64,000 bases of DNA, from contig JAIWWG010000108.1 in NCBI GenBank assembly GCA_025435555.1, positions 28,494 through 92,493 of the forward strand. Reading direction: 5' to 3'. The stretch is from Chytriomyces cf. hyalinus JEL632 (Eukaryota > Chytridiomycota > Chytridiomycetes > Chytridiales > Chytriomycetaceae). The notes under the pieces are model-generated. The model had not been told where the DNA came from. It ran no database searches and saw only the letters and a list, made by a program, of their open reading frames with translations. Of the stretch, positions 7,952-61,203 are shown piece by piece (positions within the stretch are counted from its first letter, which is position 1; every line of letters begins with the position of its first letter). A program made the translations under genes and the position numbers.

Positions 7952-10900
7952 TTAGTTCACGACAATATCTGGCCGACAAAGGGAATCTACAACATTTTCA
8001 ATCTCCTTGAACGCTCTCCCAATATCTCCCATGAACACCTCCGCAACCTCAGTGACTTCAAACTCGACAAGAATTTCCAGAGCTCCTTTAATTTCGATAC
8101 AGCTGGAAGCGATGGATACATTGCTCGGGTCCCTGATGACTGTACAGTATGCTTTTTGTAGAGTGGTGATGCAGATCCACCGTTTGTCTCCTAAACTGTG
8201 GAGTGATATAATGCCCGTCATCCATTTTTCAAAAATCCAGCCAATCCCGTATCGTTGGATCTTGAAGACGCATAGTTTTCCGGCCTATTTTTGGTTTGTG
8301 GAAAATAAACATAAAAAAGGGAAACGAAACGACGTGATATCAGTCTCTCGAAATGAAAAGAAAGAATAAGAACGCGAAATCCGCCGCGTACCTTGTCCAA
8401 AACTCGGAACGAATAAAACTGTATCGTTTTACGCCGACTGAAACTAAGTTGCGTTTGCTTCGTAGACTTTCTCATGTACGAATCATCAGCACTGGCTTCA
8501 TTATCGTGTTTGATGCGGACATGGCTTTGCATCACATCGGCAACGCGGCCTCCCAGCATGGTTCCAAGCATAGCAGTCGTTGAGATCCAAAGAATAATAC
8601 AGATTTTAAAATCCGTCAATTTATCCGGCGCGCTTTCCATGGCAGCAATAAGGACAATATTCATAGCTGAAAACAGCGCAACGAGAACCATTTGAGTTGT
8701 TTCATTGTATTCAACGAGCTTCACTTTTGTAGACAGCGTCGCAGAAACGACAAGCAAGATCCATACGAGCGCGTTGGAAATGTACCAGATACATGTGGGT
8801 GCAACTAATGCTCCCCGCACTGCACATCGAACATATGCCTCGCTGCCATCCACGACTTGAAGCGATACAACTTTTGCTTCCATCAATGCGAGCACGCAAA
8901 CGCCCACATGTACCACGGCAGCTGTCACTGCCGACATTCTAAAAGCTGTTTTTGCTTTTCGGATTGCCTCCAATGTCCTTGACGATTCTTGACCAAAAAT
9001 CCAGCGCATCATCAAGTTTTTGGAGGCTAGAGGAACAAGAATTGCAGAGTATCCAACAAGCAAGAGCAGTGCCCGAGCATTGCACGCAGCAGAAGACGGC
9101 GTGTCCAGGACCAAAAGAAGTGACAAATACGCGCACGCAGCGCCAAAACAAATCACCAACATTTCCGGCAAACAAGAAGCACGAACAATCGACGCTCTCT
9201 GAAACTTGAACAAAAACAGCGCTCCAGCAGAGCTCGTCAGGATCCCAATGATGGACAAACAAACGATGGCTGTTCCTTCTTGTGTTTGCAGCGAGTATCG
9301 AAACTTGAAGATGCGCACGGAGCCGTCGCTTGGAATGACGGAGCTTCCGGAAAATATCGGGATGGTTTTATCGAAGCTGATGATGTTGGCTCTGCTGTTG
9401 TCTGTTCGCGCAAATTCGACGCCGTCTAAACTGTCCACGACTGTGTAAAAGCAAACAGGGCTTTTGCAAATAGTGAGTCGACAGAATGGGGATTGGATGA
9501 TGCGAGTAGCTTACGATTCCCCATCTCCCTGCTCATTTAGTACCAAGTTGTTTACGCTCACGGTGCCAGCGAAACCTTTGAAAAAATAAAATAATAAACA
9601 AATAAAAAATGAGGAGGGGTTTAGTTTAGTTGAGCAACCACACTGAATAAGACCTACCAAGATTCTGGAACAGGGTAAAGTTCATATCATCTTGTGCCAG
9701 TCGGTTTGAAAGAATGTCTGGGGCAACTTGAAGCTGGCAGACTCATAATCAGCATTCAGTTTACCAAAACGCGTTTTTCACCTTGTCAAATCCCGCAAGC
9801 ATCAAAACTGTGCAGTCGTACATAATCTCGGCGGACACTCCGTAAAAGAAGGACGCACTAACATGCAAGGGCTGTTTTTTTAGAAACAAAAAACTGCCAC
9901 GATAATTCAATTCTTACGAAAAGTTGGCGCCAGCAATTTGATTCATCAAGCTGCGCAAGTTTTCGCCTCGTTCTATGCTGGCCAGGTCGGTGCAATGGTT
10001 TGCCAGAACAATACCCCGTACATCTGCCACATCCAAGTTTGGATCGGGTGTAAACCCGTTGTTTAAAAGCCAAACGTATTTTTGACCGTCGAGAAATAGA
10101 CTCGCTCGACATTTCATGAGATCTGTAACAAAATACGCTTGTCCCAGCACGATAATGTACCGCGCGTCGGAGCGGTGTAAAGTTTCGTTCATCATGCGTA
10201 TTGCCTGATCGTCAGAGTTGGATGCCAGTCCCACGCTCGAAACAATGTCAATTTGATGGTCCGCGGCCATCTGCTTCATTCGCCGCCAGCCTATTTTTTT
10301 GATCAAGCAAAACCTTAGGACAAGAGAAAGCTGCAAACGTTAGCATCAACAAGTTACCAGAATTCCCGAATTCATCGTCGCGCTGGTAAATGATTGCGAC
10401 GCGTTTAACATCCCAGTACAGCATCAGAGACAGAAGGCTTTCTGTGAAACTGTACGAAGTTGCCCTCCAAAAGTACGGGTACATGTCTTTGTTGTTATAT
10501 CGCGGTGCAGCAGTGGACGCTGCGCAGTACGGAATCTAAAAATGAAACGAAAGAAAAACAGTTGTGAGAATTTCGAGTGGTACTGTGTTTGGCGAAATAG
10601 TGTACTTGAGCATTGGACAATATTTGAGCAATGCCTTTGGCTGTCATGCTAAACTCGTTCCCAACAACGCCAATTACGTCTTTATGCTCGTCCGTTATAT
10701 CTGTCGCGGTAACTGCTGAAGCGTAACCCCCGCTTTTGCCCGAGTACTCCAAATCCGCTGAAGGATAATACTCCCCGCAATCTGTAAATCTTTTCAAATT
10801 GACATGGACCCCGGGCAAGATAGTCGGATCATTATTGATGCGCTCAACTGCGGCTACCACTGCAAGGTCTGCATAGTAGCTCCATCCAGAGTTTCCCTGT

Positions 10901-19241: not shown

Positions 19242-22200
19242 TCAAATCCTGCGTTGGCCTCCAATGCGGCCCAACGTCAAATTCGAAGCTGCTCCGATGC
19301 CGCCACCAATTTTGAGTAGACTTGGTTTGCATGTTTTCAGACTGTCCGCAAGTCCGGTAAAATGTTCCGAAAGTTTCACTTCATCAATTGCCTGATAAAA
19401 CCCAGAAGTCGATCCGGATTTTGGCTTCACAGTTTGATTTTGCTCCACAAACTCAGCCATTGCTTGCAAAACAGTGCACCCTCCATAGTACCCCGAAAAA
19501 AGAACTGCGTAAAAATAAATTGTCTGCCTGCAAACACAAATTTGAGACTGGTGGTATAAAAAGAAATGGAGAAATCAGAACACCTACCCTCTCGCGTTGT
19601 TTTCGCGAACAAGACTGGAAAGTGAGTTCATTGGCATCGAGTCTTCGCCGTCAGACAAAAAGATTATGATTGGTGTCAAATCCCGATCATAATGAGCAGT
19701 AACAGAAGCTCTTATAGCCTCAACCGTGGAATGAAAGCTCGTGCCACCGGTCGCACGAGGGGACGAAATAAGAGTATCCAGAATACTGTTCGGGGTGAAA
19801 TTTGCTAAGCCAGAACAAATGGTTTGCGCGTTGTGGTCAAACGTTATAAGTGTGATAATGTCTTTATCATTTGGCGTGTCGCTGTCAACCCCAGAGCGGA
19901 TTGCAGAATTTCTTGTTACGCAAAAGCGATAGGCAGCATCAATAGCAGCTCCAAAGCAATCCGGGTGTCTTGATCTGATTCTATTTCCGTATGGAGTACC
20001 GTGAAGAGGTCCACAATGCCCAGATTCCATGGATCCAGATCGATCGAGGGCGAATACCAAATGAAATCCAGCGACACTGCCAGAAGGATTCGAGCATCCG
20101 AACTGGTGGCCATCCCTTGAAATGTGACCCGATTGAGGTTGAATAGACGGGTCCAACGGTGCGTGAAACATTGGGAGTCGGCAGTACGACTTCAGACTGA
20201 TAAAAGGATCGTGCCCTTCTCCTGGCTTGTGCTCTTCACCAGAACACTCTGCATCGCACAGACTGAAAAACTTCTTCTCTTCTTCAGAATATGGGTCCTA
20301 AATCATGCAAGTAGATTGATATGTCAAAAGTGTCATAATTTGCGACTACGATCAACTGTACCTTAAATCCTGTTCTCTTCCAACACGTTTCATGGGTCAC
20401 GTAGTCCTTTGGCTTGCTCGGATCCGGTAAGAGGGATTCGTGGATATGCTTGCTGCCTTCTCCGTCTCGATCGCATAAATGGGAGTCGTCCGGATGACGA
20501 CACCAGTCAATGTGTGCGTGACGCTTCAGCTCTTTGCAGTACAACTGGCACAAGAAGCATTTTCCAGAATCATTTCGGTTGAACTTGTGCGGTCCATACT
20601 CAAATTCATCTTCGTCCGCGTTCGTAAACACCGTCTGCTCCATGGACCCATGAGAGGTATCATGTTCACCCTGATGACCAACTTCAAGAGTGCAAAAGTA
20701 GTTGCAAAAAGGACACCTTTGATGGCAAAAGTGAAAGTCGTCTGGATTCTCGGTGTGAATGTGTAAACCACTGTGCTTGATTTCGTTGGGTGGAATCATG
20801 ACGCTACAGGGCAGTCTTTGGTGAACTTGCTTAAACTGTGAAAATCATGTCATCAGATGAGCAACATTTGCAATCGATATATAACTTTACCTTCGTATAC
20901 GAAAACGAGCCATGGCTGTTGATATACGTGTCTTCGCAGGTTTGTGGTTGCATTTCGACTCGGCAGATTCCTTCCGATTCACACACCCCTTGACAGCGAT
21001 GGGACGATGCACACTGATGAACTGATCCACTCTCCAAGGCATGAAAATGATTGGTGCTCTGGCAGCGATGGGGGCATCCACTTATGGGACACTTAATTGG
21101 GCAAGCCAGTTGGTTCTCACAACGATGAAAGTCGTGCTCTTCTTCAACAGGGATAATGCACGAGTTTGCGCAGGCAAACAGGTCTCCGCCAGTCAGATTG
21201 GGATCTTCAACATCTCTGAGCGAGCAAGACGCGCCGCAGAAATGGGTTCGAGATTGGCACAGGTGCTCTCCTTTATGGTTCGACTGTTGGCTGCACGCCG
21301 TCTGGCAATTTCTGCGACCTTTGTGGATGCACGGTTCTCCGCAAAGATGGGTCGACACTGAGCAAAGATGATCTCCTTCGTGTCCAGCCTTCATTCCACA
21401 GGGAGGAGTGGTTGCTTCTGATTCGACTTCACCATGCTCCGCCTGAAAACAGCAAAGCATTTTGCACTGAACAAGGGTTACGTTAGAACTGCGTTCAGGA
21501 AATTGTCTATTATCCAGTCCTACCTCGTGATCAGTCATACATGAGTGCTTTTCTGAGTGATTCTGAGACAGCAGGCACCGATAATCACAGTCACCGCAGG
21601 TCAACCCACACAGCGTCCAAACTATTTTCAATTGCGTCAAACTTTGCTCAACCGTGTACGACAAGTTTGTAACCTCGACGTTGTCAGCGGGAAACCGCTC
21701 TGTGTTTTGTGCCAGCCAATCGTGGACTCGCTTTGACCGTCGATCCACCAGTTGAGTCAAGAATTCGCAAAACTCCTTGAACCAATCTGTATCAGACGAC
21801 GCCGAACTGCGCGGCTTCTTTGAGTCAAAGATGCTCGCAAAATTTGCAAGTAGCTCTGCGAAAGCAGTCGGTGTCATTTCCTTGTTTGCAGACAGTTCCA
21901 TTACTTCATAAAGCTTCAAGCCAGTATCAAGCTGGTGCATAAAAATTGATGTGGATTCATCTTCGACCTTCTCGGCGTCTTCCGGCGAAGTGGAATGAAG
22001 GTAGTCGCCAACTTCAGTCCCAGTGTCCTTGTTTTTCAGTACCTCTGGATACGGCTCCATTTCTTCCAAGCCCATACCAACAGCGCAAGGCATTGCGACA
22101 TGAAGTTGAGCGCATCTCATGTTGATCAAGTTGGCGTCCAATCCTGACCAATCGCAAACTTTGAGCTTTGCCATCAAAACTTTGATTGACTTTGAAAAGA

Positions 22201-25200
22201 TGAGCGCGTTTTGATATTTGCATTTCTGCGCGTCGAGCATGTTCTGAAGCTTGATAAGGTGCGTAAAAAAGGCCAAGTCATTGAATATCGGGTAGGGAAC
22301 AATTGCCACCCCGTTCCCATGCAAACGAGTGATGAAATTGTCTTCACCCTCTCGAGCAACCATCTCAGCAATCTTGTATTTGAATTCCGTCACGACACCT
22401 TCGCGATCCGCAGGCGGAACGTCTTTGATAATGAGAGCGAGTTTCGAGGTGAACAGCTTCTTCCCATTCTGAGCATCAAAAAGATTGGCACCGTCTTGAA
22501 ACCTACTGAACATGGCATTGGCATCTCGACCGATTGTGAAATTCGTTTTCATGAGAACCAAGCTGGAAGTCGCACAGTTGAACACGGTGAGGATGGCGTC
22601 TTCTTGATGCGACCGTTCAATGCTTTGCAATCCTTCGAAATCAAGGCCGACGTAAATTGTCTTGGACTCATGTTTTGGTATCATCGACATCCATGCACCT
22701 TCAGTGCAGCGCTGTGAGGCTGAGATTAGTTAAACCGACCTTTTAAAAAATGCGAGCGTATTACCATTGCGCTTCCGTCGAAGGAGGTTCCAAGCAAGTG
22801 ATTCAGCATAAACGATTTTCCTGAGCTCTGCTCGCCCATGGATGAGACTACTTTGACTTGGTAGTTGCTGTAATATGTTATGATGCTTTCATACCACCCT
22901 TTACCAATTGGATTAGTTCAGTGAACAACAAACACCAAAATTTCGCACCGAAGGAAATCGCTTCAGAGATGCTCCCGATATCAGGTTGCTCCACTTCTTG
23001 CGATACCACTCCATCGCGCAGTGGTACAAATCGGTTTTGAGTCGCCATTGATATTTGTATTGGGATCAGACAAAAGGCTCGCACGAGCCAATCTCCAAAC
23101 GTTTGCACCTCGGAATATTCGCACTTCGCCGAAATGAAACTGGACACATCTGAATATCCATCGAGAGACACTATCATATTATTAAGCGACCGAGTGTCCT
23201 TGGTTGTGATCTTGCGGAGGTCTTCAAAAGAATTCTTCATGTGTCGTTGCAGTAGTTGAGTATACTTTCCCACCTCTTCACATGAAAACTGAGCGCCGAT
23301 TGGAATTGCGGCAATGAAATTGCGATCTTTTGGTGCTACGTCACGATCCAAACAAGATTGCACTGGGAATTTGGTGAAAACGTTCTTGTACACATCGAGA
23401 AGGCCGCCTCTTCCCGCGCGACGCTCAATCCGATACTCAAGAAAAATGTTCTGAGTAGTTGTGACAGGCCTGTCAACCATCAAAACTGCATCTGAAGTTA
23501 TTGCTGTTATTCGACGTCGCTCATTATTTGCAATGACGATATGATCGTCGACACGAGCATCATTCAAAAACTGCGTCCCGCGGCCAATAACGACCATCAA
23601 ATCATCAGTGGAGATTTGCACGGCTCCAGAATACACTTTTCCTGGAGTCACTTTTCGGTTTTCTTGAAACTGCCAGCAGTGACGTTCGAGCGACACCTCT
23701 GCAATGACGGAAACATACGCGCCGTTGTACACTGCTGTAAGATGAAGCTGTCGGTTGCGAACATTGATCATCTCCACCGAACGGGCCACTTCAGGGGTGA
23801 AGCTTGAAGGAAGTGGGACAATTATGTCAGCTGCCGATGTCGGCTGGGTGCAAAAGAAAATATGCGCCTCCAAGGTGCGAGCAGGATTTTCGTAAACCCC
23901 ATCGACTTCAGGTTGTATGATTGATGTATCATCATCGGTCTCTGTGTTTGCATTTGGTGCGATAGGTTGCACGATGGCCATCAGACAAGATCCATCGTTC
24001 GTTGCAATTACTCGGATAAATCCTGGAGGAAGAACAAACGCAGAAGGTCGAAACTCAGTTGTGACCAAGCTGTAAATTCGAACTCTTCCGCTTTTCTCCA
24101 CAAAGCATACTTCTTCACTCGTTGGAATGAAGATGACGTCGAATATGTCTGGCGATACGCCGTTGTACCAGGCGCCGATATTGATTTGCGGGTGCTTTAT
24201 AAAAAGCTCGGTGAAACCTTCGTCAAAGCACATAACATTCAGCTGGAACATTGTGATGTTAGGTCAACATTGTCGACGCTATTAGTTCAAACGAACGACT
24301 TACATTTGCAGATTCTGAATCATACAAAGCCAACAGACTTTTCGACTCATCGAAGGAAATGTGAGATATTGGTCTCTTGAAAATTTTCAACGCGGTTGAC
24401 TTTTCAACTCGATGGCGTAAATCTTGAGAGCCGGTGATGGCAAGTGTATAACAGGACTGAATTTCTTGCAAGAACAAGAGGACATTCCCATTTTTTAAAA
24501 TATACGCGCATCTGGCAACTATGGATGAGAACATAATTCAAAAATGAAATGTTTTTCATACCTGAATCGGAGCAACAGCGGATCTATATCAAATTCGATT
24601 TGATCGTATGAGGTGAATCGAGGAGTGGGCACGAAGGTCTCATGTCCCTCGCCAGCTTCTAGAGTTTTAGCATCGTTTGCATCCAGATTCCCTTTCCACA
24701 CCGAGTATTTGACCAAAGCCGGCTTCGACATCTCCATTTCAAATGCGACATGAATTCTTTTTCTTGCAGACGGGTATCTTGAGTAGTAGTATCGCTCATC
24801 TGGACAGAGATAAATTACAATCGCGCACGGACTTTATCAAGTTCGTCCAGTCCTTACCTCCGACGCTTTTAATGAGAATAAGCCGTCTGGAGAAGTAATC
24901 CAATATGTGGCAGAGGTTTGTCAGCTGAAATACTGAAGCAAGTCGCATTCAAAAATTGCCACGAACCCAATTCCAAAACGTTCTGCCAGAATTTGTTTCG
25001 AAGTGGCCAATGCTGCTGGCAGATTTTTTTGAATAATTTCACGCCGATAGTTGAAGGCACGTGAATTGATAAGGTCTCGCGCTTTTGTAACATTGGGGAG
25101 AAATAGCCCATCTGCTGAAAACCCAGACCGCCATTCTGAATATGCCAAAAGAATCTCAGCGAGAATTGTTTTACAACGCAGCACCATCTGCTCTTTGACG

Positions 25201-27896
25201 CTCAGCTTTTTAAATTCTGCTGCGGGGATCTTGATTGACACGGGTCGACCAGCTTGCAGATCATACAATTCCAGTAATTTCAAATCGAGCTTTGATTCCT
25301 CAGCATTGTGGCCAGGAGAGGTTGAATCCATTGCAGTGGTCGGAACTTCGCATTGTCCACCAGCCGCATTTGGCACGCAGGGTGTGGCCATTCTTGCTGG
25401 GCTTGCATATGTATCTTCAGCTGGTCTTGTCAATTTTCCTGCAATGGTACTGTCATCTGCAATGGTGCTGACATCCACATGGGAATCTTCGACTTTTCTG
25501 TCAGAAGTGACACCGCTTGCTTCAATTCCAGCATTTGCCGATATGGTTGCATTTATGAGTTTGGCTGCCCGGTCAACAAAATCAGAGTCGCTTGTTCGCA
25601 TCAATTGAGCGTCGAGTTCGTCCTTGAGACATCTGAACCAGCCTACCGCATCAGTAGGAGGGCCATTTCGCACAAACGCAGCAACTTTCGCAATGAAATT
25701 ATACGATGGGACTCCTGTGACCGACTCAAGACGTTTTGAGCACTTTTTTAGAACATTGTCAACAGTTCGATTTCTCGAATTTATGCATATAGCGACCAGG
25801 GTTTTCGTTGAGTCAGCTTCAGGGGACTCGCGAGAAAGATGACTCGAGTAAATTTCAGATAGCATGAGCCGCTCTTTTATGGCTTTCCATTTTGGCCGAT
25901 TGATGCTTGTCAACTTCGCTTTCAGCGCGGACTCATCAAGAGGAAAAAGCGCAGGCTTACGGAGTTGTTCATATCTGACTTGTCCGCTTGTAGGTTGAAT
26001 GTGGGATTCCGCAGGTGCACTTTCGGGCACAGAGACACAAATGAGAGGGCTGTGACCAGATACAGCATTTTCTTGCTCCGATATCATCGACTCCAAACTG
26101 GGGTAGAGTTCTCGTAATGTGCTTTTGATTTTGACTTCGAGAACAGCCTTGGAAGCAGCCAAATCCAGGTCTATCGCGGACTCTTGCTCCGCCCGAAACT
26201 CAGCAAGCTGCGCCTCCAAAGCAGCATCGAACTCTTTCAGCGGCTGGAGTATAAACTCTTTGTCCGCCATTGCAGGGTAAAGGAAATGCACAAACTTTTG
26301 AAACTCGTCGCGATTGACGGAGTCAGCAAAACGCAAGGTGCTCAATGTCTGCCCCCTAAAAAACTGTTGCAGTTCATCGGGCCCATAGTTGTCGTCAAAC
26401 TTCTTCGTAATGCGCTGGCTTGGCACAGACTGGGTGGTTATGAATGCCAGCTGCTGTCTGCTTGGAGCAGGAACAGCAGAATCCAAGGACAAGCAGATTG
26501 CCCGGTGCGTAACGCGAAATCCATCACGAATACGGAAGTTTCTCTCCTTTTCTTGATTCTTGGTCACTTTGAACTCGAAAATGCCGCCATTGTCGACATC
26601 AAAGTCCTCGTCAAAATCCATTTCAAAGCCGTCTTTCTCATTGACAGCGGAGTGGGCTTCCCAATTGATAGAATTAACGTCTTCTCTTGACAGTAAGCAA
26701 ATTTGCGTGTGGGTGAGTTTGTACATGAAGCTGCAAAAAAACAAAGTACTTCGTAAGTGGATATGCCACAAGGAAAACTCAAACGACGAAAAATCATGTT
26801 CGAAACAAGATGCTATCTGATATGAGGAAGTAATCGCACCTGTGCAGGTTCACAAGATTTTTTTTCAAATCACTGGACGCGTCATCATAGAAGCAGCCTT
26901 GTTCGGGCCAAAGTATCACAATCCCAGTGCTTTCTTTCATTGATAGGAAGTAAAGGCCGGGTTTCAGCCAAGAGGCCTCAGAATTCGACACCGCATCAGT
27001 TAGCATTTCAAAACTGTTGGACCAAAACATATTACTTTCAATTTGAGCCATTAAATACAGCAACTCACATTTGCTGATCGATCGTGTCAAGCTTTAAAAG
27101 CATGGCGGCCAGTGACTCGCGGTTTCCATAAACGCCAACCAACTTCATCTTTACCTCGCTCAGACGCTGAAAGTCAACGTTGGAAATGGATTTGAATGAG
27201 CCTGGGACGAGTTGGTTACAAAGTTCCTTGACAGATCCTTGCGCGATGATGATTTTGTCAACTGCGAGAGAAAGTGGATGGTCCATCAATATGCTGTGTT
27301 TTCTCGCATCATCAAGTTACCATACCTAATCCACTACATCCTGAGTCCTTGTAAAGCTCCAAGATTCTGAACAAGTTAGGGATTCTTTTCAAAACTTGAT
27401 CAACTTCTGTTGTCGGGCGCGATGGTTCGAAGTCGAGTGCTTGGTCGCGGCTCAGTATGTAGTCCATATCCATGCCGTCATCTGAATCAAGCAGTTCAAC
27501 GCTGAAACCACCTGATTGTGGCTCTGCAGCCGGTGCAGCGATTAATTCTTTATCAGGCGTAGAGTCTTGAATGCCAGGGGTAGATTCTTGGATATCAAGC
27601 GCGTCAAGATGAATCGGGAGAAGGCCAAAGTCGTTGTCGTCATCGTCTCCAAACAGGTCCTCATCCTCATCCATGGGGACTTGGATCTCGGCGGCTGCCT
27701 GTGTTGACTTTGTTTCATCTTGGAACTCGGCGGTTGCCTTTGTTGACTCTGCTTGATCTTGGAACTCGGCAGGTGCTGGTGCCAGGTCGACATCGCCAAA
27801 GATCGCCTCGTCCATCAGAGCCTGCATCTCGTTGGTTGGTTCCCTCGAGACGGGCGGATCGGCGTCGTTGCCGTTGCTGTCGTCAATCGTGCCCAT
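19242..27896 (-). CDS. Giant GBP/VLIG-like GTPase with Cys/His-rich region and VWA domain
   Basis: Fourteen exons: 27896-27326, 27261-27069, 27013-26840, 26730-24963, 24924-24858, 24799-24562, 24511-24304, 24242-22895, 22856-22765, 22711-21524, 21466-20891, 20835-20362, 20297-19588, 19527-19242; 7893 nt, 2630 residues. The N-terminus is acidic with AEFQD repeats. Residues 70-1520 are long and mostly helical-looking, without a known domain. Near 1530 comes a P-loop GEQSSGKS, then RCTEGAWMS and DFEGLQSIE, the pattern of guanylate-binding-protein and very-large-inducible GTPases; a possible G4 is IIKD where GBPs have RD. Residues about 1920-2270 hold repeated C-x3-C / H-x3-H-x-C clusters. A VWA domain follows (about 2375-2560) with MIDAS motif DRSGSM and FLSDGED. 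The overall architecture is inferred from motifs. The 57-nt intron 21523-21467 is in frame and could be retained; introns 24962-24925 and 22894-22857 are only 38 nt. Confidence 0.8.
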
Positions 27897-28289: not shown

Positions 28290-31200
28290 TTAAAACATGT
28301 CCAGGCCACGCTCCGCCACCCAACAAACCCAGTACAGAAACGATCCTGCAAATCGAACCGCCGTCAGTCCCGCAACGCTCCACAAGAGGAACGACAGGAA
28401 ATAGTTGGGGTCGTTGTCGCGTGACATTTTCGAAATCACGGTCGAATTGGTCAAAATGTAGACGAGCAGGAAATTGGACAGGAACCAAGCAACCACCACG
28501 TACGTTCGGTAGTTTTTAAAATGGTCTGAACACAAAACATGCCCACATCAGCTGACCAATTTTAAACAGAAAAGAAATAAACGGAACGCACCTTCAGATG
28601 TAAAGTCGACTGGCTTTGAGTCCTCCTTTTGCGGCGGGTTTCGGAGCAGATAAGACATATTCTTGAGTTTCTCGAGCTCGTTGATATAGCTGGGAGCAGG
28701 CACGTCTGTGGCAGCGACTTCCTCACCCTTCTCATTCTTCTTCGACTTGACCGCCGGCGCGTGGGACGTGCTATCTTGGCCCTTTGTGCCCCAAGAAATG
28801 TCGTGGATGTTGCAGACTAGAAGAAATCAATAAGTCTGCAACCAATTCCCCTGAAAACTCAAAGACTTACATGCATACACCATCAGCACATTGGTAAAAG
28901 TGGGTATCATCAGCAAATACTGCAGCAAACACGTAATCGTGTGCCATGGATCCAAGTACAACAAACTGCTCAACACATACAGCGCGTACGTGCACATTAG
29001 CGAAACAGCCAAATCTCTGAATGATGCAACTCGTCCAATGTATCGAGCCACGTCAGTGAACCCGTGCACTGAAGTCGGAACGCCTTTGACTTGCAAAAAC
29101 ATGGTCCAACTGACAAGTGCAAGCATGAGAACCATGCACAGGGCAAAGATGAATGAAATGAAGATCACAAGGGTCTTGACGGTGTCAGGTTTGTTTCCAA
29201 GAGAAACAAGTACCATGGTAATGAATGCAGTGATGTACGCTGCCTTCAAGGTTGCTGAGACGGCGGTACCATATGGAAAGAAAGGGTCTACTCCATATGT
29301 ATCTACGATAGCTTGTGTGCAGTCTGCAAACCTTTTGTCTGCGATATTGAACATGAACTAAGACAAAGAGTTAGTCCTTGCCGATACTTTGCCAGATGAC
29401 AACAACTTACAAAAAAGCAAATGTACATGCTGGCAATATTGAACCACGAAAACGCCAAGTTGATTGCGTTATAAAACGTTTCAAGCAGCAAAATAAACTT
29501 TCTGTGCGGGTAGTGCCCCGAAGTCAAGATGCGGGTGAAATTTTGGACCGCGTAAGTGGACGCAAAGAAGGAGCCGTTGAACCATCGTCGGCGTTGCTTA
29601 ATCAGATCGTGCATTTCAGTGGGAACATCCGTCTCGGCTTTTGCGGATTTTACGTATTTCAGAACGTATTGGTTGTGAGCTTTCATCACCAATTCGAAGC
29701 ACAGGATGCGATCTTCAGCCCTGCACCAGGTGTTAGTTGGCCTCTCGAGATTGCATCAAAAAAGTTTAATGGTGCTCACAGGTACATGTTGGATTCAGAG
29801 ACATTGGGCCGACCCACTGCAAACGGAATTCTCAGAACACGCTGACGAGAATTGAAGCGATCAACACAAAATGAACTCACCAATGCCATCAGCATGCAAC
29901 TTCTCACCCTTGAAATAACATTCAAGAGGCCTACCAAGAAGTGCTTTGTACCGGTATGCAGAAAACGCGCCCGGAAGAACAGAAATGTAGCCACACATGG
30001 ACTCGAACGGCTTATCCAAAATGTTTGACATTTTATACTCAAAGTTTTGGACTGCAACCAGTGGGTTCATGAGATTTTTCCACATGCTTCCCAACTCGGC
30101 GGCAATTTCTCCGCATGCTCCAGCAACGTTTTTGTTTCGGTCGAATGCTGTTGACAAGAACATCAGCATGCAGACAACAGACTCTACACCCACAAATAAT
30201 CACCTCGATACAAATGATAAAACGACTGCCGCGTAGGCCGAGTCCCAACATCCAACAAGATACAAACCTCGGGCTTCAACTTTTCACAAATCGAATTGAA
30301 AAACCATCGATGCGAGTTGATTTTTTTAGCATTTTTTTCCTTGAGGACAAAGATGGTTTGCATCGGTACGACGGGTATCTCATGTTTTTGAGTGTCTCCA
30401 CCGACAAAGCGAATGTTCAATTCTTGGTCGATACGAGCTTGCGTCGTGAATTCAAAAAAGTGGGCTTCCACTGGCTTTTCGTTCACTGTGGAGCGAGGTA
30501 GACCTTCAACGAAGCAGCCCATGGCTGATAAGACATCCAATGTTTGCTTGTTCATTGGACGAACGCCTGTGGCAATATTTTTAAGTATCGAATTCATCAA
30601 GAAGGCTTAGGGTTGGCGTACCGTCGGCGACAATGACCACAACTATTTCTTTCCATGCGAGGGCATTCCATCCTTTCTTTCCCAAGGAGCACAGGTATGA
30701 AATGTTGTCCATCACCGCTGATATGGTTTTAGTGAACAGCAACTCGTCCTCGTTGTACCTGAACAAGAACATTTCAGCCGAGAGCAAGTAGATTGCTTTT
30801 TTTAAACCCTCTGCAATTACATTGTACACACAACTGCCAGTTTCGTCTTTCTGCCAATCATTGATTGCCTGACATTGTACTGTCTTCCAAAGTAGTTGGC
30901 ATCACAAGTGACTGCAGTGTACCTGGAGAAGATTATCGGTTGTTCGTTTAAATGCCATGAAATATAAAGGGTCATGAAACAATGTCACCTCAAGTTGGTG
31001 AATTCCTCGTCCGTTCTGTGGTACACGTTGTTCAGGTATTCCTCTCCAAGAGGAATATCCACCACAAAGTTGCCGTCCGTCAAAACAACTTCCTTATTGA
31101 CCATTTTTGTGGGTTTGCGCTGGAAGGGGGATCTTTGAAACCCCTTCTTCTCAGGCATCTGGAAAATAAAGTCGGGGTCGGATTTTGCAAAATGCTGGAA

Positions 31201-56423: not shown

Positions 56424-57444
56424 ATGGACCGCACACTTTCGCTGTTTTCCTCAGCTGCAGGCGCTGCCCTGTCCACCAACGATACTCTTGATGCCGCCCC
56501 GAAAACCTACCCTACCACAGGTTTCATCAACGGCTACATCTGGGGCAGCTTGGACAACGCGACTTGGTGCGCGTTCCTGATGTACCAGCTATACTACAGC
56601 TTCGTGATCCTCAACGAAGCGGCGCTCAACTACAAGCAAACCTTCATCTGGGCCTTAGTCTTTTTTGCTATCGCTTGCAACATGATGGCGTCCGTCTCGG
56701 GTTTCTTCCTCCTCGACTGCTTCATGTTCGATTTGACGCCGGATTCACACATTTGCGACCGCCAGATGCGCGTGTACTACGCGTTTGAAGGCATGTGTTA
56801 CTGTCTCGGGTTCTGGCTTCTCTTTTATAGAAAGTATAAAGTTGTCCCGGATAAACTCGGGTACACCGGCGCCGTCGACATGGTTGTTCTCGTGGCGTGT
56901 TGTTGTCTGAACTTGTCCAAAACTGTTCCGTGCTTCTACTGCGAGATCAACACGTGTTTTTTGCTGGATGTGTATCAGGCGAGTGCCGGAGCGTTGAGCT
57001 TCTTGTACTTTGACTTGTGGTTTCTTGTTTGCGTGATGAGAAAGACGTTTGAGAAGGGGAGTAAGTGGGAAGTGCTGCAGTTGTGTGCGTTGACGGGGAG
57101 TATGACGTTTCTTTACCTCGTTGGAAGTATCAGCTACAAGACGTGGGGTGGTAATTTTTACACAAACCTTCTCTGGAACATGTGAGACTTTCCTTCAACG
57201 ATGATATAATTTAATTCATTTGTTTATTTTGCGTTCCTTCTTTCTTTCTTTCTGCAGGGGCTTCTGTCTGCTACCCCTCTACAGTGTAGATTCTGTCGTG
57301 AGTCCCAAATTCCTCAAAATGTTCGCGAAAGAAAAGACCATTGCGCGACCATCTGAAGCTGTGTCTCGGCCCACTGGCGCCTCGGTAGTTTCCAAGGGTA
57401 CACCGGGCAACACGGAGTTGACAATCAACAAGTCCGTGATTTAG
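56424..57444 (+). CDS. Multi-pass (about seven-helix) membrane protein, tandem copy 1
   Basis: Two exons, 56424-57181 and 57258-57444; 314 residues. After a short variable N-terminus, YPTTGFINGYIWG begins a region of about seven hydrophobic segments rich in Cys and aromatic residues (e.g. FIWALVFFAIACNMMASVSG, GAVDMVVLVACCCLNL, FLYFDLWFLVCVM), then a polar tail. I do not recognise the family. The size and helix number would suit a receptor or a transporter, but no DRY-, NPxxY- or retinal-lysine-like motif is evident. The block from about 56520 to 57325, including the intron, is virtually identical to copy 2 while both ends differ. Confidence 0.75.
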
Positions 57445-58162: not shown

Positions 58163-59297
58163 ATGGACGCGTCCACCAGCTTCGCTCTCATGCCGACAGG
58201 CAGCTCAACGGGAGCAGACACTTTCTCCGCCAACGCAACCGCGCCTGAAGTGTATCCAACCACGGGTTTCATCAACGGCTACATCTGGGGCAGCTTGGAC
58301 AACGCGACTTGGTGCGCGTTCCTGATGTACCAGCTATACTACAGCTTCGTGATCCTCAACGAAGCGGCGCTCAACTACAAGCAAACCTTCATCTGGGCCT
58401 TAGTCTTTTTTGCTATCGCTTGCAACATGATGGCGTCCGTCTCGGGTTTCTTCCTCCTCGACTGCTTCATGTTCGATTTGACGCCGGATTCACACATTTG
58501 CGACCGCCAGATGCGCGTGTACTACGCGTTTGAAGGCATGTGTTACTGTCTCGGGTTCTGGCTTCTCTTTTATAGAAAGTATAAAGTTGTCCCGGATAAA
58601 CTCGGGTACACCGGCGCCGTCGACATGGTTGTTCTCGTGGCGTGTTGTTGTCTGAACTTGTCCAAAACTGTTCCGTGCTTCTACTGCGAGATCAACACGT
58701 GTTTTTTGCTGGATGTGTATCAGGCGAGTGCCGGAGCGTTGAGCTTCTTGTACTTTGACTTGTGGTTTCTTGTTTGCGTGATGAGAAAGACGTTTGAGAA
58801 GGGGAGTAAGTGGGAAGTGCTGCAGTTGTGTGCGTTGACGGGGAGTATGACGTTTCTTTACCTCGTTGGAAGTATCAGCTACAAGACGTGGGGTGGTAAT
58901 TTTTACACAAACCTTCTCTGGAACATGTGAGACTTTCCTTCAACGATGATATAATTTAATTCATTTGTTTATTTTGCGTTCCTTCTTTCTTTCCTTCTGC
59001 AGGGGCTTCTGTCTGCTACCCCTCTACAGTGTGGATTCTGTCGTGAGTCCCAAATTCCTCAAAATGTTCGCCAAGGACAAGACCAGCGTCGCCAAGCGGA
59101 GTGGCCAGACCTCCACTCAAGACGAGGCATCCACTGCCAGTGCGAAAAAGCCCAGAAACATGTCCGTGACAGGACATCTCATTGTGCCGCAAGCCTCTGT
59201 TGGAGGCACGCTTACAAAGCATGGCAAGCAGCTTGACAGTGTTGTGGGAACTGAGAGTATGGAGCGTGCGAGTACGGCGCCGTTGGTTCACAAGTAG
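58163..59297 (+). CDS. Multi-pass (about seven-helix) membrane protein, tandem copy 2
   Basis: Two exons, 58163-58926 and 59003-59297; 352 residues. The membrane region is identical to copy 1; the N-terminal ~32 residues (MDASTSFALMPTGSS...) and the Ser/Thr/Lys-rich C-terminal tail (after KFLKMFAKDKT) are different and the tail is longer. Intron length (76 nt) is the same with one base changed (offset between copies constant at 1745 bp, no indels). Start chosen at ATG 58163 because it aligns with the copy 1 start context; ATG 58082 is upstream in frame but adds a Lys-rich leader that lacks coding character. Same unknown family as copy 1. Confidence 0.75.
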
Positions 59298-59339: not shown

Positions 59340-59776
59340 ATCATCATTATAACAAAAGGGTAGAAAGGGTAGAAAGGGTTGGGCGGTAGCGCAAAAGCAC
59401 GCTACTGCCGAGAAATAAAGTCGGCTTGTTGGTGAGGTTAAGAAAGAACCAATGCCTGGTGGTGGTGACAGTTGAGCGAGGGGGGAGCAAGCCAGCGAGC
59501 CAATTTACTGGAAGAATGGTCGTGTTTATTTCCTTGTTTACACGCAATCATATAGAGTAAGAAAGAGAAGATCGTACCCTGGTGGTGGTGACAGTTGAGC
59601 GAGGGGGGAGCGAGTGGGAGCAAGCGAGCCAGTAAGCCAATTTACTGAAAGAATGGTACATTGGTTGTGACAGCTCTCACTTTCCATTCACCATCACCAG
59701 GGAAAATTATAAACAAAAAACAACCAATCAAAAGGCCTACTGAGCCGGTTGAAATGTCAGGGTGCATCCGACACAC
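59340..59776 (-). repeat. Putative LTR of a decayed copia element
   Basis: On the minus strand a purine tract GGGGGGGAG is followed at about 59776 by TGTGTCGG, the expected junction of polypurine tract and 3' LTR. The far boundary is not defined; 59340 is a guess just past the copy 2 gene. Inside, two imperfect direct copies of a ~70-bp segment occur at 59455-59520 and 59578-59655 (both start CCTGGTGGTGGTGACAG on the plus strand). Confidence 0.45.
59382..59409 (+). repeat. Hairpin-forming inverted repeat
   Basis: GGCGGTAGCG, an 8-base loop CAAAAGCA, then CGCTACTGCC: a 10-bp stem with one G-T pair. It lies between the copy 2 stop and the LTR-like repeat. It could be the tail of a short element or a 3'-end structure. 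Confidence 0.6.
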
Positions 59777-61203
59777 TCCCCCCCAAATGGCTGGGTAGTA
59801 ATGCTTTCTTTGCCAAATGCGCAACGACAGTCTGTGAATTTTGTCGATCCAACTCCTTTGGTAAGAACATCAGCCCACATAAGAGGGTCAGGGCAGTGGC
59901 CAACAGTAATAAGGCCCTGACAAACTTGATCCCGTAGAAAGGCAAACATGATGTCGAGGTGCTTGGTTTTGTGCCTGAGTGCCCCCTCCTCCATGTTAAA
60001 GACTGCCCCTTTGTTATTGGTCCACACTTGCGACGGCACTTCCTGCAGATGACCCAACCATTCCAGCATGTTTCGAACCCAGATAACCTCTTTTACCAGG
60101 GAGCATGCGGCTATGACTTCAGCAGAGACAGTTGAGTCAGCAACTATTGGCTGATGCTTGCTGAAGCTAAGAACTGCTGATTTTCCTACCCGAACCAAAA
60201 CTCCTGTCATTGATTGCCGATTTTCCGTGTCGGCAGCAAAATCAGAGTCTGAGTAGCCCTCTACCACCAGCTTGCGACCTGTGCATTGGAAACATAGACC
60301 ATGATCACAAGTGTTGTTGAGATATTCGAGTAATTCCTGAGCGGCTTTCCAGTGGATGATTCGAGTTTTAGTAGTGTGCCATGCCAGCTTACCCACAACA
60401 TACTGAATGACTGGGCGAGTCACAGTCAGAAGTTAGTTGAATGGTGTTACTGGACCCTCAATTCGCCTATGCTCTGACCCAAATGCAGTATGGTACTCAG
60501 ATTCAGGTGAGATCTGCCCTTCAGGTGAGGTCTGCTCTTGTGGAGGAGATTGATTATTGTTATCTGTTTCCTCCCCAAGCATTTGCTGTGGCATTCCTGT
60601 TGAGTGGTGCTCAAATGTGAGAGACTGAGAATCCGGATTATTTTGAAGAAGACCCCAGTTTTGACGTTTTTTGAGATTCACTGAAAAGGCCCCCAGAACA
60701 TGGGGAGCCCAATCATCTTGCTGAATATCGTCCCAGGAGAGAGTCTTGACTGGATTTTGGAGAGGATTCACATTACTTGGATCAAAGTGATCCTCAATGA
60801 ATGCCACATCTCAGCTGACCACGATAGAGTAGGGATCATCATCTTGAGTGAGAATACGGTAGCCTGGCTTTTCACACTTGGGTTGCCATGGATAGTTTGA
60901 ATGACCAATGTATCAACCTTTCACTGCTTGGGGACTTGACTTGCCTTCTGTGCAATTTTTTGGAAGTTTGTATGCATACACAACACAGAAAAGTGTCTTG
61001 AGATCGCAAACGGTTGGCTTGGATCCGAATAGTGCTTCATGAGGCATGATGGTATCTTCTTTCTGCAGAAATGAATTGTAGATTTCTGCTTGGTGGTTGA
61101 GACCATCAACCCAGAGGTTGGTTGGAGTATTTGCCTGGATGGTCAGTACATGGTGTCTGTCCATGGCTATGCGGTGGTACACCTCTTCCATCCCAAGTGA
61201 CTG
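59737..61203 (-). mobile_element. Ty1/copia retrotransposon, internally deleted remnant
   Basis: Read on the minus strand, 61191-60913 encodes the end of a copia integrase (SPTNLWVDGL-like TPTNLWVDGLNHQAEIYN, then MPHEALFGSKPT). 60807-60433 encodes the Pro/Gln-rich linker between integrase and reverse transcriptase, and 60423-59737 encodes RNase H (YSDSDFAADTENRQSMTG, SAEVIAACSLVKEVIWVRNML, HKTKHLDIMFAFLRDQV). The reverse transcriptase, about 250 codons, is missing between linker and RNase H, and stops separate the blocks. The RNase H motif usually DN reads NN. The element cannot be autonomous. Polypurine tract and LTR-like sequence follow at 59785-59776. Confidence 0.88.

Follow-up and report, generated by a model that had tools for sequence, protein, structure and literature searches.

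Giant GTPases of the branch that includes the guanylate-binding proteins (GBPs) and the VLIG proteins have become known chiefly as interferon-induced defence proteins. Vertebrate VLIG-type proteins are very large, and their G domain lies a long way from the N-terminus; zinc-like clusters and a VWA domain are not known from them. Human GVIN1 is reported to form an antimicrobial coat (PMC11974893), and RNF112 joins a RING finger to an atlastin-like G domain (PMC12012479). A single GBP homologue, with no known immune role, is present in D. discoideum (PMC8565484). In the zoosporic fungus Blastocladiella emersonii an expressed sequence tag (EST) resembling an interferon-induced guanylate-binding protein was filed under defence response (PMC1550239), and zoosporic fungi with GBP-like sequences are therefore not wholly new. 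Here we describe a gene for a giant protein, which in the best model joins a G domain of this branch to cysteine- and histidine-rich (Cys/His) clusters and a VWA-type domain, on the minus strand of a 64,000-nucleotide (nt) stretch of DNA (G000:C11:28494-92493, hereafter the window) from a 37.8-Mb genome in 242 contigs.

Results

Structure of the gene

The gene was modelled with a dynamic programme combining codon score, GT/AG sites, branch point and short introns, the start being fixed at the ATG at 27896 (coordinates of the gene and its neighbours are positions in the window). The search returned a 14-exon gene on the minus strand, running from 27896 to a stop codon at 19242, with 7848 nt of coding sequence and 2615 amino acids (aa). 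An earlier note on this DNA had proposed a single gene with the same ends and the same number of exons, both of which were recovered, but the present model is 45 nt shorter than the 7893 nt (2630 aa) claimed there. All 13 introns are GT-AG and measure 47 to 109 nt; eight contain an in-frame stop, 11 have a length that is not a multiple of three, and intron 10 (81 nt) is the only one whose retention would leave the frame intact.

The codon scores used to compare exon frames came from 25 stop-to-stop open reading frames (ORFs) located outside the giant gene, which are not verified genes. The frame of the model had the top score in all 14 exons, with narrow margins in exon 11 (-0.003 vs -0.038) and exon 12 (-0.010 vs -0.022) and with the score of exon 5 drawn from nine codons. 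The same codon scores were used in a chain search with free choice of ATG, which additionally demanded a positive donor score. The minus strand scored 130.7 and the start was again placed at 27896, compared with 6.0 on the opposite strand and best chains of only 4.3 to 9.8 in all 12 of the first-order simulated control sequences. A splice run with a milder intron penalty, which produced a stop at 20831 and exons of 9 nt and of zero length, was set aside. The 5' part of the gene and its G domain are firm, and a single giant gene is the best model of the locus.

The G domain

The P-loop GEQSSGKS (G1, residue 1523) is encoded by exon 9 (22765..22898), and exon 10 (21524..22711) supplies G2 (RCTEGAW, 1547), G3 (DFEGL, 1570) and a proposed G4 (LIIKD, 1639). 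Profile scores depended on the joining of these two exons. Exon 10 without the P-loop exon scored 12.6 bits with the Pfam GBP profile, or 15.3 bits as a read-through ORF, against a cut-off of 21.1. A spliced piece of 115 residues from exons 9 and 10 scored 44.0 bits with URGCP, 37.1 with RHD3, 33.4 with GBP and 19.1 with Dynamin_N; longer spliced pieces scored slightly lower in unchanged order. As the scores jumped only after splicing, the intron between exons 9 and 10 is supported.

The earlier note had proposed comparison with such profiles. The cut-off of GBP (PF02263) was passed at 32.6 and 33.4 bits, a result that is not specific, but those of URGCP/VLIG (PF25683; 40.4 to 44.0 bits against 55, best expectation value (E) 1.7e-11), RHD3 (PF05879; 32.7 to 37.1 against 42.4) and Dynamin_N (PF00350; 15.2 to 19.1 against 27) were missed. 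A sequence search of the PDB gave 15 matches at E up to 10, with chains of GBP2, GBP1 and Sey1 on top (E 0.00037 to 0.0013) and GBP5 next (E 0.0063).

A Sey1/RHD3 GTPase gene on contig 29 of the same genome (G000:C29:49168-50072) served as control. Its fragment scored 187.1 bits with RHD3, 36.4 with URGCP and 33.2 with GBP; since this Sey1 passes the GBP cut-off equally, that cut-off does not discriminate. In an exon-wise search of the genome with the URGCP profile, the P-loop exon of Sey1 (30.1 bits) exceeded that of the giant gene (15.1 bits). The giant protein and the local Sey1 fragment share 37% identity over 76 columns covering G1-G3, and their P-loops are alike (GSQSTGKS in Sey1). G4 was placed at LIIKD because the local Sey1 shows VIRD at the matching place. 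Profile and PDB match thus give the branch motifs GxxxxGKS in G1, Thr in G2 and DxEG in G3, while (R/K)D in G4 was recognized by eye. On this evidence the G domain, with G1-G3 intact, belongs to the dynamin superfamily and within it to the GBP/VLIG/Sey1 branch; VLIG/URGCP is the closest profile, though only slightly ahead of the others, and the domain fits no single named family. The GBP-like G domain claimed earlier holds at the level of the branch but is not GBP-specific, the local Sey1 scoring 33.2 bits and the giant protein 33.4. Single-sequence structure predictions of exon 10 alone, which lacks the P-loop (mean predicted local distance difference test (pLDDT) 37.5), and of exon 8 (pLDDT 31.6) count neither way on the fold.

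The C-terminal half

After the G motifs exon 10 encodes an uncharacterised region and then the first Cys/His group; further clusters follow in exon 11 (20891..21442) and exon 12 (20362..20835), the latter including GHQGEH at residue 2179. A stretch of 465 residues from about residue 1895 contains 41 Cys and 41 His (82/465). Motifs in it were compared with 2000 composition-keeping shuffles; the patterns were picked post hoc, and the richness in Cys and His is itself outside the reach of a shuffle. Five of six patterns exceeded the shuffles: the GHxGxH type (3 observed; mean 0.02, maximum 1), HxCxxxC (4; mean 0.33, maximum 3), CxxC/CxxxC (16; mean 6.76, maximum 15), a close H..H.C pattern (5; mean 0.90, reached in 0.2%) and a looser HxC..C pattern (4; mean 0.82, reached in 1.1%). 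The sixth, a looser C..H..H pattern, was not beyond chance (8; mean 4.26, reached in 8%), so the repeated clusters that had been claimed were borne out except in this one spacing. No RING, IBR or NF-X1 family was found in a 673-aa piece of this region (Pfam, E up to 1), no Pfam zinc family exceeded its cut-off there, and the PDB gave no sequence match at E up to 1. Matches to zf-C2H2_ZN142 and to NCBIfam (E 0.037 to 0.084) were taken as chance. The clusters are predicted to bind zinc.

Exon 13 (19588..20297) encodes the VWA-type domain, and exon 14 (19242..19527) the end of that region, the C-terminus and the stop codon. The residues of a metal ion-dependent adhesion site (MIDAS), DxSxS, T and D, are present in order, at DRSGS 2369, GGT 2468 and SD 2499. 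VWA_2 (PF13519) matched at E 1.1e-5 with 26.4 bits, 0.6 under its cut-off of 27, PF00092 was also under its cut-off (18.4 vs 23.8 bits), and the PDB gave no sequence match to this part at E up to 1. The C-terminal VWA-type domain with MIDAS residues that the earlier note had described is supported, and the motifs read there (GEQSSGKS, RCTEGAW, DFEGLQ and DRSGSM) were all found in the present protein.

The N-terminal region and membrane features

Exon 1 (27326..27896) carries the start codon and an acidic N-terminus (aa 1-190). Exons 2 (27069..27261), 3 (26840..27013), 6 (24562..24799) and 7 (24304..24511) were placed by splice model and frame score. Exon 4 (24934..26730) encodes a large uncharacterised N-terminal region (aa 313-911) with no Pfam family over cut-off, and exon 5 (24858..24886), a micro-exon of 29 nt following the weak donor of intron 4, is the least certain part of the gene. 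Exon 8 (22949..24242; aa 1071-1501) is strand-rich in its predicted model, which is of very low confidence. Neither residues 1 to 1070 nor the ORF holding exon 8 matched a Pfam family at a meaningful level. The PDB sequence search with the region before the G domain gave a MON1 chain only (E 1.4), which was taken as chance, as were weak matches to GPAT_C, GRAM, DUF5640 and IRF-3 (E 0.087). The appearance of the sequence ahead of the G domain had prompted the idea of a beta-propeller, which was dropped, there being no profile, no PDB match and a model of pLDDT 31.6.

No clear membrane segment was seen by hydropathy among the six top windows of the protein, five of which lie at aa 893-902, before the G domain (up to 1.66), and the sixth at aa 1681 (1.37), within the presumed G domain stretch. 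No membrane family exceeded its cut-off in the Pfam scans of the protein, and the C-terminus, ..GGQRRI, is not a CaaX motif. With neither a CaaX end nor, judged by hydropathy only, a convincing membrane segment, the case for the membrane-remodelling role suggested in the earlier note is weakened. GBP_C (PF02841) was not matched in segments of 869 and 673 aa at E up to 1, nor in a whole-genome search, which returned no control either.

Copy number and surroundings

A search of the genome with the exon 10 protein, which scores best candidates only and here had one, found a single place (one match at E up to 1). The PF02263 genome search gave no match and is uninformative on copy number; it missed the giant gene itself, whose domain is divided between exons. 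The Cys/His-VWA part gave six matches, four of them the gene's own exons; the other two, at other places, were weak and covered the VWA part only (E 6.5e-5 and 0.035). Two near-identical GTPase copies, GDTSSGKSSLLSAISG, with LPGIS, were seen at G000:C14:71-178 and G000:C210:21418-21528, one of them at a contig end; by eye these P-loop places look like dynamin/Mx-type GTPases and not like relatives with the architecture of the giant protein. Viral contigs, scanned twice (4 and 7 pattern matches), and prokaryote genomes, scanned once (35 pattern matches), yielded no relative; neither is a collection of eukaryotes. The architecture is not described among the papers listed in the literature searches, most subscription journals lying outside them.

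Ten ORFs were sampled from the window outside the gene. Family matches came from five of them, two with chitin synthase and one each with RNase III, aldehyde dehydrogenase and a class C receptor. No defence family was found among the ten. The chitin synthase ORFs (29303-30606, minus strand; PF01644 146.4 bits, PF03142 28.3 bits) lie directly upstream of the giant gene and share its strand, and an ORF between them (28827-29357) matched no family. Three exons of IFT57 exceeded the cut-off in the genome; together with chitin synthase these indicate that the organism is probably a fungus with a flagellated (swimming) stage.

Three further features of the window were noted. The class C G-protein-coupled receptor ORF (8218-9510, minus strand; 7tm_3, 59.5 bits) is of a type more familiar from animals. 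Two minus-strand ORFs, 56745-57194 and 58490-58939, are equal in length and identical in their first 70 residues, representing either a local duplication of recent origin or a repeat in the assembly. The ORF at 59737-60432 (minus strand) resembles, by eye, a fragment of a copia-type retrotransposon.

Discussion

The explanation that we favour, at somewhat better than an even chance, is that one gene encodes a giant soluble or cytosolic GTP-driven scaffold, which would assemble on a partner or surface and present a zinc-VWA tail. The sequence speaks to the anatomy alone, and each working step is transferred from dynamin-superfamily G domains and MIDAS-bearing VWA domains. The G domain is predicted to bind GTP, and GTP loading would pair two G domains and switch their shape, as in dynamin-superfamily GTPases. 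The change of shape would expose or order the tail, in which the Cys/His clusters would bind zinc and fold into rigid modules while the VWA MIDAS would hold a divalent metal and grip an acidic partner.

Several observations count against this explanation. The best chain of the run demanding positive donors extended from 27896 to 20397 (6657 nt with 13 introns) and did not take in the VWA part. The URGCP, RHD3 and GBP matches span G1-G3 and not the full domain, the assignment of G4 was made by eye, and the predicted models of exon 10 and exon 8 are both below usable confidence. VWA_2 stayed under its cut-off, with 23.8 bits in a longer piece. A hydrophobic 19-residue window at aa 899 (mean 1.66), which spans a splice junction, is not fully dismissible as a membrane segment, and the membrane-protein family ASTER appeared at E 0.38 and 0.12, below cut-off and probably by chance.

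The locus might instead be divided between two genes side by side, one for the GTPase and Cys/His parts with its end at 20284, the other a short VWA gene beginning at the ATG at 20171. The donor of intron 12 is weak (-0.3 in the full model, and -0.2 for intron 4, so that both introns are excluded when a positive donor score is required), the strict run ended before the VWA part, and read-through from exon 12 reaches the stop at 20284. However, the intergenic gap would then be only about 110 nt, and the part of exon 13 before the ATG scores best in the frame of the model (0.028 vs -0.083 and -0.289) and carries more Cys and His, whereas the read-through tail of exon 12 scores -0.126. The gene contains no internal AATAAA, and one ATTAAA at 24873. 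As exon 13 before its ATG is in frame and bears Cys and His, the gap is short and AATAAA is absent, the join of the Cys/His part to the VWA part is likely and two genes are very improbable. Another possible role is that of a membrane-trafficking or fusion factor, a Sey1/atlastin-like mechanoenzyme brought to membranes by its tail. This is unlikely: the RHD3 score of 37.1 bits and the identity with the local Sey1 fragment fit such a role, but the score is below the cut-off of 42.4, the six top hydropathy windows yielded no convincing transmembrane segment, and a proper Sey1 (187.1 bits) is already present in the genome.

Less likely again is a cell-autonomous defence GTPase resembling GVIN1 or GBP1, in which GTP-driven assembly would place a coat on invaders of the fungal cell. 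It would agree with URGCP/VLIG as the best-scoring profile for the G domain and with two precedents, namely the antimicrobial coat of human GVIN1 (PMC11974893) and the GBP-like EST of Blastocladiella emersonii classed under defence response (PMC1550239). Yet the G domain stays below the URGCP cut-off, this profile gives 36.4 bits to the genome's own Sey1 fragment, and the P-loop exon of Sey1 outscored that of the giant gene (30.1 vs 15.1 bits) in the genome search. A single copy was found in the exon 10 search, the families recognised in five of the ten sampled ORFs are those of chitin synthase, RNase III, aldehyde dehydrogenase and class C receptors, and PADLOC gave no match for the two pieces scanned, a weak result as its library is of anti-phage systems. 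A defence role for the giant GTPase is thus unsupported, and so is the intracellular surveillance envisaged in the earlier note, the gene having been found in one copy, beside a chitin synthase. A more specific version, a VLIG-like coat-forming surveillance GTPase of flagellated fungi with a new type of zinc cluster and a VWA grip, has a slim chance of being correct; if true, giant immune GTPases would be older than interferon and animals. There is similarly little to recommend a ubiquitin-pathway scaffold, a variation on RNF112 in which the Cys/His stretch would be a RING-like ligase module whose assembly the G domain controls. The many CxxC/CxxxC and HxC pairs and the precedent of RNF112 (PMC12012479) would suit it, but the Cys/His region contained no RING, IBR or NF-X1 family in Pfam and matched no PDB sequence, both searched at E up to 1.

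A fungal relative with a zinc-VWA tail and no convincing membrane anchor would reveal the role that GTPases of this branch had before interferon. Other fungi and amoebae have VLIG-type GTPases, and VWA proteins with comparable Cys/His stretches, whose annotation names no function, and the novelty of the GTPase-Cys/His-VWA architecture is uncertain. If orthologues prove common and already annotated, this would be a neglected family and not a new one. The finding is real, and its main uncertainty is the spread of the architecture among eukaryotes.

Of the described systems, VLIG/GVIN1/URGCP (PF25683) gives the best-scoring profile for the G domain (44.0 bits) and shares with the giant protein a very large size and a G domain far from the N-terminus; the giant protein differs in falling below the cut-off of 55 and in matching over G1-G3 only. 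It resembles GBP1 and GBP2 (PF02263) in passing the family cut-off and in its best PDB sequence match (E 0.00037), but no GBP_C helical domain was found in it and it has no CaaX, a motif present in some GBPs only. With Sey1/RHD3/atlastin (PF05879) it shares 37% identity over 76 columns with the local Sey1, a similar P-loop and, by eye, xIxD at G4; unlike them it stays at 37.1 bits against 42.4 and has no convincing membrane anchor, and a true Sey1 exists separately in the genome. VWA proteins (PF13519) are matched at E 1.1e-5 with the MIDAS residues in order, although at 26.4 bits against a cut-off of 27. RNF112 (PMC12012479) likewise fuses a zinc module to this kind of G domain; its RING is N-terminal and recognisable, whereas the clusters of the giant protein are C-terminal and unclassified and are followed by a VWA-type domain.

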